Assembly (NCBI GenBank): GCA_902619825.1
Contig: CACNFT010000001.1
Location: 329,534 to 393,533, forward strand
Direction of reading: 5' to 3'
DNA length: 64,000 bases
Source of the DNA: an uncultured Candidatus Actinomarina sp.
Lineage (GTDB): Bacteria > Actinomycetota > Acidimicrobiia > Actinomarinales > Actinomarinaceae
The notes beneath the pieces are model-generated. The model ran no database searches and was not told where the DNA came from. It saw only the letters and a program-made list of their open reading frames with translations. Below, in pieces: positions 6,788-24,672 of this stretch. Position numbers and translations under genes: made by a program. Numbering within the stretch: position 1 is the first letter of the stretch; each line of letters opens with the position of its first letter.

Positions 6788-6879
6788 GGAGGTGAATGAG
6801 CGCCTGGTGGGCTCCACAGTCTTCAAAACTGTTGAAAGGCTTAAGTGTCTTTGGCGGGTTCGATTCCCGTCCACCTCCG
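6788..6879 (+). tRNA. selC: tRNA-Sec (anticodon TCA)
   Basis: A 92-base cloverleaf with the hallmarks of a bacterial selenocysteine tRNA. The acceptor begins GGAGGTG and pairs with CACCTCC at 6872-6878; an eighth position would be A-C. The D arm is GAGC/GCTC with possible extra C-G pairs closing a TGGT loop. The anticodon stem is ACAGT/ACTGT around the loop CTTCAAA, with TCA at 6823-6825. A long variable arm follows. The T arm is GCGGG/CCCGT around TTCGATT. CCA is not encoded. It reads UGA and is consistent with the two in-frame TGA genes in this window (selD and the Rdx-type gene). An overlapping minus-strand ORF is a shadow. Confidence 0.93.
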
Positions 6880-21443: not shown

Positions 21444-21508
21444 TTTAACAAAAATGTAATACATTATTGCAAAAGGACTGCTATATTATTCTCATGTTTA
21501 AATTAAAT

Positions 21509-21591
21509 GCGGCAAAAGTGGTGGTGATCTACATATAGATAGCCCTGTTGCATGCGTTTGATGGACCGGGCAGATTGCCCGGATTTTTTTT
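21509..21591 (+). ncRNA. Structured leader RNA upstream of the glyoxylate-shunt operon (putative attenuator or riboswitch)
   Basis: A non-coding stretch between the 20325-21443 gene and the 74-residue gene can fold into a closed structure. The outer helix pairs 21509-21515 (GCGGCAA) with 21548-21555 (TTGCATGC). The hairpin ATCTA-CATA-TAGAT lies at 21527-21540, and an intrinsic terminator at 21566-21591. GCCC at 21542-21545 could alternatively pair with GGGC at 21568-21571 and open the terminator. A TATATT at 21482-21487 may be the -10. I could not match it to a riboswitch class I know. It could also be a free small RNA. Confidence 0.5.
21566..21591 (+). terminator. Intrinsic terminator just before the small-protein/aceA/aceB genes
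   Basis: A perfect 7-base G+C-rich stem, CCGGGCA and TGCCCGG, with loop GAT, followed by A and eight T residues. It ends only 12 bases before the ATG at 21604, so it would cut transcription ahead of the downstream genes unless it is antiterminated. This is the G+C-richest hairpin noted in the window. Confidence 0.88.
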
Positions 21592-21603
21592 GAAAGGAAA
21601 AAA

Positions 21604-21828
21604 ATGATTGACGAAAACACGTTTTATGATGAAGAATATTATGAAAAAGATGATGAAAAAAAATCATCTAAATTCGTGAATAATTTTCTTTCTTTTGAAG
21701 ATAAAATCTTCAGAGCTCCTTACAACTTTTTGAAAAAAATTGGATTTATACGAACTTATCGAAATGTTGCAAAAAAATTAAAACAAACAAAAGACGACAT
21801 TTACGAAAGTTTTTATGATGGAGAATAA
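21604..21828 (+). CDS. Small charged protein of unknown function
   Basis: 74 residues with no signal peptide or membrane helix. The N-terminal third is rich in Asp, Glu, Tyr and Lys ([20 protein letters not shown]); the rest is basic and amphipathic ([20 protein letters not shown]). AAAGGA seven bases before the ATG is a usable ribosome site. The end overlaps the isocitrate lyase start by 14 bases, so it is translated in the same operon, under the leader-terminator described above. Not recognised. Being the first gene after a regulated leader makes a regulatory or accessory role possible. Confidence 0.6.
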
Positions 21829-23101
21829 AGATCACTTAGATGCCGCTTTGTTGGCTAAAGAATGGGAATCTAACCCTAGATGGAAAGATACTGAAAGAAA
21901 CTATTCAGCAGAAGATGTTGTTTCTTTAAGAAACTCAATAAATATAGAGTATTCTCTTTCACAAAATGGCTCTTCAAACTTGTGGAACTTACTAAATCGA
22001 GAAAAAGAATGGATTTCAGCCTTAGGTGCTTTGTCAGGTAATCAGGCAGTACAAATGGCGAAGGCTGGCCTTGAGGCTATTTATTTAAGTGGTTGGCAGG
22101 TAGCTGCAGACTCAAACCTCGGAGATACGACATATCCTGACCAATCTCTATACCCAAGTAACAGTGCACCTAACCTTGCAAAAAAAATAAATAATGCACT
22201 TTTAAGAGCTGAGCAGGTAGATAAAACCGATGGAATTGAGTCGACAAACTATATTATTCCAATTGTTGCTGACGGTGAAGCAGGATTTGGAGGAGCATTG
22301 AATGTTTTTGAACTTACGAAAAAATTCATAGAGGCTGGAGTTGCTGCAGTTCATTTTGAAGATCAACTTGCTGCTGAAAAAAAATGTGGCCATATGGGAG
22401 GAAAAGTTCTTGTTCCGACAAGCCAACATATCCGAACATTAACCTCTGCAAGGCTTGCAGCTGATACACTTGGAGTTCCACTTGTAATAATTGCTAGAAC
22501 TGACGCTCTGGGTGCAAATTTACTTACCAGTGATATCGATGAAATTGATTCAAAGTTTGTAACTGGAGAGAGAACCGCTGAAGGATTTTACAGAGTAAAT
22601 AATGGACCTGAAGCAGCTATTTCAAGAGCATTATCTTATGCCCCTTATTCAGACTTAGTTTGGTGTGAAACATCTAAACCAGATCTAGGCTTTGCAAAAG
22701 ATTTTGCAGAAGCTGTGCGTGAAAAATATCCAAATAAGCTTATGGCTTATAATTGTTCTCCATCATTTAATTGGAAAGCTTCGCTAAATGAAAAGGAAAT
22801 TGAAACATTCCAAGAACAGCTAAATTCATTTGGATATAAATTTCAATTCATAACATTGGCAGGTTTTCATGCCCTCAATACTTCAATGTTTGAATTAGCT
22901 ACAAACTATAAGGGTGGAAATATGTCATCTTATGTCGAACTTCAAGAAAAGGAATTTTCACTTGAAGAAAAAGGGTTTACCTCTGTTAAGCATCAGAGAG
23001 AAGTTGGAGCCGGTTACTTTGACAAAGTATCAACAATTATTTCAGGTGGCGATGCCTCTACACTAGCACTAGAGGGTTCTACCGAAGAAGAACAGTTTTA
23101 A
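21815..23101 (+). CDS. aceA: Isocitrate lyase
   Basis: 428 residues. The catalytic signature KKCGH is at 189-193 (catalytic Cys C191). Also present are [20 protein letters not shown], the metal-binding DGEAGFGG stretch near 150-157 and the [13 protein letters not shown] segment. It splits isocitrate to glyoxylate and succinate, allowing growth on acetate or fatty-acid-derived carbon. Two adjacent ATGs (21815 and 21818) are possible starts. The stop overlaps malate synthase by one base, so the two shunt enzymes are made together. Confidence 0.96.
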
Positions 23102-24672
23102 TGATTGAAATCCAATCAAATAAAAAAAATGAATACCAATCAATATTATCTAATGATGCAATAAATTTTTTAGAAAAAATTTGCTCAAATTTTGAAATCA
23201 GTCGTCAAGAAATTTTAGAGAATAGAAAAAAAATACAAAATGCAATTTCATCAGGTACTAAACTCTCTTTTCCGAAAGATAAAAAAATAAGAGAGGGTGA
23301 CTGGAAAGTTACTCCGCCTCCAAAAGATGTAGCAAATAGGAACGTTGAAATTACTGGTCCAGTTGATAGAAAAATGATAATAAATGCCTTAAATTCTGGT
23401 GCCGATGTATTCATGGCAGATTTTGAAGATTCAACTTCACCTACCTGGAACAACATAATGAATGGTCAAATAAATTTACTTGATGCAAATTTGAAGAAAC
23501 TTGAATTTGTTGATCCAAAAAACAAAAAGACATACACTCTAGATTCAGAAAGTAACACAAGCCTTTTTGTAAGGCCAAGAGGTTTACACCTTGATGAGAA
23601 AAATGTATTGATAAATGAGTTACCAATTTCAGGAGCATTTTTAGATTTTGCTCTATATACATTTCATAATGCAAAACTAAGATTAGATAACGGCATTGGT
23701 ACGTACTTCTATATACCAAAGCTTGAAAATAGTAAAGAATCACAACTCTGGGATGACATATTTTCTTTTTCTGAAGATGAATTAGATCTACCCAGAGGAA
23801 CAATTAGAGCTACTGTTCTCCTTGAAACAATTTCGGCTTCATTTGAAATTGAAGAGATGCTTTATTCTTTAAAAGAGCACTCTCTTGGTATGAATGCAGG
23901 CAGATGGGATTATATTTTTAGTGCAATAAAAAAACATAGGGACCTAGAAGAAATCAATTTTCCAGATAGATCACAAATTACCATGACTGTTCCATTTATG
24001 AAAGCATATACTGAACTGCTCGTACAAAGTTGTCACAAAAGAGGAGCTCATGCAATAGGAGGTATGTCTGCATTTATTCCAAATAGAAGAGATACAGATG
24101 TTACTGAGAAAGCATTAGAAAATGTTAAGAAAGATAAAGAGCGAGAAGTTTCTATGGGGTTTGATGGTTCTTGGGTAGCTCATCCAGATTTAGTAAAAGT
24201 ATGTAAAGATGTGTTCCAAAATTCCTTAGGTACAAAAGAAAACCAAATTGACTATGTACCTAACGAACCAATTATATCTGAAGAGATGCTCCAAGATTTT
24301 AACATTCCCAATTCAACAATTACCGAAGAAGGGATAAGAACAAACATACGTGTAGGCATCTTGTATATCCAATCATGGCTTCTAGGACAAGGAGCAGCTG
24401 CATTATTTAATCTTATGGAGGATGCTGCTACAGCTGAGATTTCAAGATCACAATTATGGCAATGGCTAAATAATAAAGCAGTGACTGAATCAGACAATAT
24501 GATTACTAAAGGTTTTATAAGTGAATTAATTGATGACGAAGTAAATAAAATAAAAGAGATTCAGGAAAACTCAGAAATGCTGAATGAAGCAGTAGAGGTA
24601 TTTAGCGATCTTATTTTTGATGAGAATTTCGAAGAATTTTTGACTTTATCAGCTTATAATTTAATAGATTAG
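23101..24672 (+). CDS. aceB: Malate synthase A
   Basis: 523 residues, the type A length. Recognisable stretches are VEITGPVDRKMIINALNSGA, FMADFEDSTSPTW (about 104-116), VRPRGLHLDE, the catalytic-base region RATVLLETISASFEIEEML, GMNAGRWDYIFS and GFDGSWVAHPDLV. It condenses glyoxylate with acetyl-CoA to malate, completing the glyoxylate shunt with aceA directly upstream (TAATG overlap). The short-chain dehydrogenase gene follows after three bases and is probably in the same transcript. Confidence 0.96.
   Translation: MIEIQSNKKNEYQSILSNDAINFLEKICSNFEISRQEILENRKKIQNAISSGTKLSFPKDKKIREGDWKVTPPPKDVANRNVEITGPVDRKMIINALNSGADVFMADFEDSTSPTWNNIMNGQINLLDANLKKLEFVDPKNKKTYTLDSESNTSLFVRPRGLHLDEKNVLINELPISGAFLDFALYTFHNAKLRLDNGIGTYFYIPKLENSKESQLWDDIFSFSEDELDLPRGTIRATVLLETISASFEIEEMLYSLKEHSLGMNAGRWDYIFSAIKKHRDLEEINFPDRSQITMTVPFMKAYTELLVQSCHKRGAHAIGGMSAFIPNRRDTDVTEKALENVKKDKEREVSMGFDGSWVAHPDLVKVCKDVFQNSLGTKENQIDYVPNEPIISEEMLQDFNIPNSTITEEGIRTNIRVGILYIQSWLLGQGAAALFNLMEDAATAEISRSQLWQWLNNKAVTESDNMITKGFISELIDDEVNKIKEIQENSEMLNEAVEVFSDLIFDENFEEFLTLSAYNLID

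Follow-up and report, generated by a model that had tools for sequence, protein, structure and literature searches.

We consider it highly likely that the region 21494–21591 of the window (the whole 64 000-nucleotide stretch of DNA analysed) is a conserved transcription attenuator of the leader-peptide, ribosome-mediated type, for which translation and a response to valine are predicted. Comparison of sequences supplies the open reading frame, its conservation, three competing RNA pairings and a family of sister leaders; we infer valine as the amino acid sensed and the direction of the response. The element is not an amino-acid-biosynthesis attenuator in the strict sense, as the operon that follows encodes isocitrate lyase and malate synthase, a non-cognate target.

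The source genome is 1.08 Mb in size (91% complete) and the G+C content of the window is 33.6%. The operon is arranged as leader, small open reading frame (sORF), aceA and aceB, and all features from the promoter element to aceB lie on the + strand. The first gene (21604–21828) encodes a small protein, 74 residues long in the window's clade and shorter in the other clade, for which no match was found in Pfam. Its C-terminus is conserved and its gene overlaps the start of aceA, which suggests translational coupling of the two. The aceA gene (21815–23101) encodes an isocitrate lyase with the KKCGH motif, as indicated by alignment and by the Pfam ICL match (9e-109), and aceB (23101–24672) encodes a malate synthase (Pfam malate synthase domains, 6e-96). 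Elsewhere in the window, at 6788–6878, there is a selenocysteine tRNA gene (Rfam RF01852, 75 bits); its presence in a 1.08 Mb genome makes a selenoprotein likely.

The original prediction described a leader folding into an outer helix, an inner hairpin and an intrinsic terminator, and the fold of 21470–21620 places all three where they had been proposed. The minimum free energy is −38.4 kcal/mol compared with −29.1 ± 3.6 kcal/mol for dinucleotide shuffles (z = −2.6), and 3 of 200 shuffles fold as well as the native leader. The terminator (the 3:4 pairing; 21566–21591) consists of the hairpin CCGGGCA-GAT-TGCCCGG at 21566–21582 followed by eight T at 21584–21591, and is kept in all leaders. A terminator scan returned exactly this one hairpin, with 7 bp (six of them GC), against 0.2 expected. 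The T-run ends 12 nt 5′ of the ATG at 21604, the distance given originally, and a U-run intrinsic terminator thus precedes the first structural gene, as the attenuator class requires. The second pairing, the protector (1:2; 21502–21562), combines the outer helix P1 (21502–21515 with 21548–21562) and the inner hairpin, in which the Val-codon region pairs with 21542–21547; it is taken from the minimum-energy fold of the window, is similar in the other leaders and shows double changes. The third is the antiterminator (2:3; 21542–21571), in which GCCC at 21542–21545 pairs with GGGC at 21568–21571, extended by 21547–21553 with 21561–21566. It forms in all distinct leaders with energies of −8.5 to −13.8 kcal/mol. 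The GCCC at 21542, for which a role in alternative pairing had been suggested, is the predicted switching element: it may pair with the Val-codon region or with the GGGC of the terminator, and a ribosome that has reached the stop codon would cover it. Protector, antiterminator and terminator are mutually exclusive, and every distinct leader has all three. Two features had been overlooked: an open frame at 21494–21538, which lies inside the outer helix and the inner hairpin, and, at 21479–21487, an extended −10 element.

This putative promoter element, TGCTATATT, is conserved 6 nt before the leader ATG. Its hexamer TATATT ends exactly 6 nt before the ATG, a spacing found in all 19 aceA leaders, which share the pattern TGnTAnnnT (with CG in one leader); a promoter scan gave no good −35 upstream of the leader. 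From this spacing a leaderless transcript is probable, with the ATG at most 1 nt from the transcript start, and initiation is predicted to be of the leaderless kind. The peptide, MFKLNAAKVVVIYI, has 14 residues, encoded by ATG TTT AAA TTA AAT GCG GCA AAA GTG GTG GTG ATC TAC ATA TAG. The candidate control codons are the three Val codons 9–11 (21518–21526), all of them GTG.

To establish how far these features are conserved, 42 genomes of the genus were sampled. An aceA gene of the window's kind (type A, 76–100% identical) is present in 20 of them, 19 with enough upstream sequence. The same −10, 6 nt spacing, reading frame, Val codons, protector, antiterminator and terminator are found at all 19 loci, which comprise 13 distinct leader ORFs. 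The frame is open in each of the 13 and frame +1 is closed in each. Under a simple model of random substitution at the observed numbers, the chance that five divergent representatives would keep the frame open is about 1e-4. Differences in ORF length are whole codons, the two clades differing by one codon and one member lacking exactly one codon. Beyond the genus, a scan with AceA, which covered distant taxa only, found no leader, its one match being at chance level (E = 0.19); of 80 distant aceA loci, three have a terminator-like hairpin upstream and none has a Val-rich peptide.

The hairpin lies about 120 nt 3′ of the stop codon of an upstream membrane-protein gene, and it could in principle be only the terminator of that gene, with a constitutive start further down. 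We regard this as barely credible. In the window's clade the leader–sORF–aceA–aceB cassette lies between this membrane-protein gene and a short-chain dehydrogenase, but in the other clade several other genes lie upstream of aceA–aceB, and the −10, ORF and hairpins have accompanied the two genes to these loci. Moreover, a second, paralogous type of aceA (type B, about 54% identical, without a leader and without aceB) occupies the slot between the same two genes, directly behind the membrane-protein gene, with no terminator between them. Since the leader travels with the cassette and is absent from type-B aceA in the same slot, it belongs to aceA–aceB and not to the upstream gene; the concern that it might be the 3′ end of the upstream transcript is thereby answered. 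The genus thus contains two isocitrate lyase types (window 21815–23101; L039–L048), and some genomes have both.

The switching behaviour of the leader was modelled by partition functions on the transcript up to the 3′ arm of the terminator, with a ribosome at set positions. For the window leader the modelled probability of the antiterminator is 0.00 without a ribosome, 1.00 with a ribosome stalled at codons 7–12, 0.51 at codon 13 and 0 at codon 14 and at the stop. The zero at the stop depends on the ribosome footprint assumed, but the position of the Val codons inside the permissive range is footprint-independent. In several clade-2 leaders and in L027 the ribosome-free probability of the antiterminator is already 0.61–1.00, so the default state differs between lineages.

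The mechanism that we propose is as follows. RNA polymerase would begin at the A of the leader AUG or at a neighbouring base, and a ribosome would load on the leaderless end and trail the polymerase. With plentiful valyl-tRNA, the ribosome would reach the UAG at 21536 and cover the GCCC at 21542–21545, the terminator at 21566–21591 would form and sORF–aceA–aceB would be off. With scarce valyl-tRNA, a stall on the rare GTG codons 9–11 (or at Ile12) would break the protector and leave the GCCC free to pair with the GGGC in the terminator's 5′ arm, and the polymerase would read through. If the window leader carried no ribosome, its GCCC would be held in the protector and termination would be the default.

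A covariance model for which nine aceA leaders were the only input has matches in 41 of the 42 genus members sampled and in none of 254 genomes from elsewhere in the class. Among the additional matches are leaders that encode, for example, MYKVTNWNWWTLHM upstream of trpB or MKLNNTYFYFREHI upstream of DAHP synthase–tyrA–aroA (each closed by a stop codon); these gene names, like ilvBNC, are ones that we take to apply from recognising the sequences, with no family search. Of 67 additional loci read, 32 lie before DAHP synthase, 14 before trpB (15 with L199, which was read by eye) and two before ilvB, most of the remainder being Trp leaders with no evident target gene. The control codons are WNWW or WHWW before trpB and YFYF before DAHP synthase–tyrA–aroA. 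They fall at approximately codons 7–10 in the ace, trp and aro families, with codon 10 located 18–22 nt before region 2. The source genome itself carries MINVINWHWWTTT before trpB, MKINTYFYFRAHI before DAHP synthase and MKKSVNLISLLVLVLM before ilvB (again each with a stop), and ilvBNC has its own related Leu/Val leader in all 30 loci read, that of the source genome included.

Within the nine clade-2 leaders alone, covariation was no greater than in shuffled alignments. As this covariation was too low to judge, a joint alignment of ace, trp and aro leaders was used. In its 37 leaders 91% of cells are paired, with 125 double changes compared with 46 after shuffling, and the covariation score of 0.320 exceeds that of all shuffles (0.124) and slides (at most 0.06); because the model structure guided this alignment, and P1/P2 are out of register in the aro leaders, we regard these values as support and not as proof. 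Double changes occur in helices 1, 2 and 4 across the ace and trp leaders. The closing pair of the terminator, which is unaffected by the P1/P2 misalignment, is CG in the ace and trp leaders and UA in all ten aro leaders. An RNAalifold consensus of the mixed-clade alignment selects exactly the antiterminator, and only this pairing, because the clades misalign by one base in P1. The comparison among relatives proposed with the original prediction thus finds the stems conserved and covarying.

A stable conserved fold with alternative pairing and a terminator would also suit a riboswitch, in which a metabolite such as glyoxylate, isocitrate or glycine binds the leader and the open frame is accidental. 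We consider this very improbable. Rfam at the gathering score assigned no family to the leader, in keeping with the earlier remark that no common riboswitch was known with this sequence, and matched only the selenocysteine tRNA elsewhere in the window; sub-threshold matches on the leader at relaxed thresholds were chance-like, and the sister-leader loci had no match. The frame is kept open in every leader while frame +1 is closed, and the same scaffold recurs before trpB and the aro genes with cognate codons swapped, which no aptamer explains. Of the original proposal, then, a conserved structured leader with a terminator before sORF–aceA–aceB stands, but the sensor is very probably a leader peptide with Val codons and not an aptamer.

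If the sensor is such a peptide, its signal might still be the general speed of translation, or alanine, isoleucine, tyrosine or several amino acids together, which we think unlikely. The window ORF also contains Ala6-Ala7, Ile12 and Tyr13, and in the model a ribosome stalled anywhere from Ala7 to Ile12 has the same outcome. However, only Val9-Val10 are invariant across both clades, with changes that are synonymous only (GTT, GTA); other leaders have Ser, Ile or Val at positions 6–7, and codons 11–14 differ between the clades. GTG is the rarest Val codon, accounting for 7.6% of the 642 Val codons in 20 window genes and for three of three in the window leader. Because these codons are also base-paired in the protector, part of their conservation is structural; position 3 of codon 9, which is paired in other leaders, varies synonymously. 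Finally, the sister leaders hold exactly the amino acid made by their operon, Trp or Tyr/Phe, at the positions occupied by valine in the aceA leaders. In our view, nothing argues more strongly for translation, and for valine as the signal of the aceA leader, than this swapping of codons at the same place according to the product of the operon.

Several Trp leaders were found in other settings. In many genomes a Trp leader with its terminator stands alone, with the genes behind it on the opposite strand (L153, L154, L155, L156, L200, L221, L224 and L247). A block like TGTCACTGAAATTAAATCTCCGGGCTCAACCC follows the T-run at these solitary leaders and is also present before some trpB genes. The solitary Trp leader may function in trans as a small RNA, by analogy with rnTrpL in Sinorhizobium. 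In L209 (1–1227) a Trp leader, MKNVTSWNWWSTT with its stop codon, directly precedes an ORF reading MNNRLSYGNKAKNLEYVAKNTD…, and trpB is missing. This ORF resembles one found after trpB elsewhere, possibly a PEP-utilising enzyme, and is another unexpected target of a Trp leader.

Attenuators have been predicted for trp, ilvB and cys genes of actinobacteria (PMC1262725), and that of M. tuberculosis ilvB1 has recent experimental support (PMC13236596). As in the ilvB(N)C attenuators of Corynebacterium, Mycobacterium and Streptomyces (PMC1262725, PMC13236596), a short ORF with branched-chain codons overlaps a structured leader with an intrinsic terminator, but the targets there are in branched-chain synthesis, whereas here they are isocitrate lyase and malate synthase and the codons are nearly only Val; the ilvB leader is separate from the aceA leader within the same genome. 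The 1:2, 2:3 and 3:4 logic, with control codons in the peptide, is that of the classical actinobacterial trp attenuators (PMC1262725), and the trpB leaders of this genus are matched by the aceA model. The differences are that Val replaces Trp codons at the same positions and that the target is non-biosynthetic. Mycobacterial leaderless poly-Cys ORFs act as attenuators, as Canestrari et al. (2020) are cited in PMC9031893, and a leaderless short ORF sensing one amino acid is also what we predict here; no conserved intrinsic terminator was seen in the cys leaders (PMC1262725), whereas a T-run terminator is present here. In E. coli, EttA controls the translation of aceB and aceA (PMC11282234), and pausing of ribosomes tunes glyoxylate-shunt genes there as it does in our model; EttA, however, acts on acidic residues at the N-terminus of AceB itself and not through an upstream leader peptide and terminator. 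In the part of the literature covered, no report was found of glyoxylate-shunt genes under the control of an amino-acid attenuator.

We know of no established reason linking valine to the glyoxylate shunt. Valine is made from two pyruvates, and low valyl-tRNA may therefore mark a shortage of three-carbon compounds, when the shunt is needed. We conjecture that valine serves as a gauge of pyruvate supply, with the shunt on when carbon arrives as acetyl units. Tentatively, and as a possibility that we would not yet favour, a leader was re-coded and moved to a central-carbon operon, with valyl-tRNA charging as a proxy for pyruvate, the aceA and trpB leaders (xVxVV and xWxWW on one scaffold) descending from a common ancestor by a codon swap. 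Another explanation, that valine breakdown refills the cycle via propionyl-CoA, was weakened, as no methylmalonyl-CoA mutase was found in the source genome (one genome, 91% complete).

To our knowledge, examples of attenuation through amino-acid codons come mainly from genes of amino-acid synthesis and of tRNA synthetases. That a single scaffold precedes different operons of one genus, bearing Trp codons at some and Tyr/Phe or Val codons at others, amounts to a natural codon-swap experiment, in which the swapped codons predict the sensed amino acid from the sequence. If the reading proposed here is true, a streamlined marine actinobacterium would, by coupling its glyoxylate shunt to valyl-tRNA, link anaplerosis to its amino-acid status.
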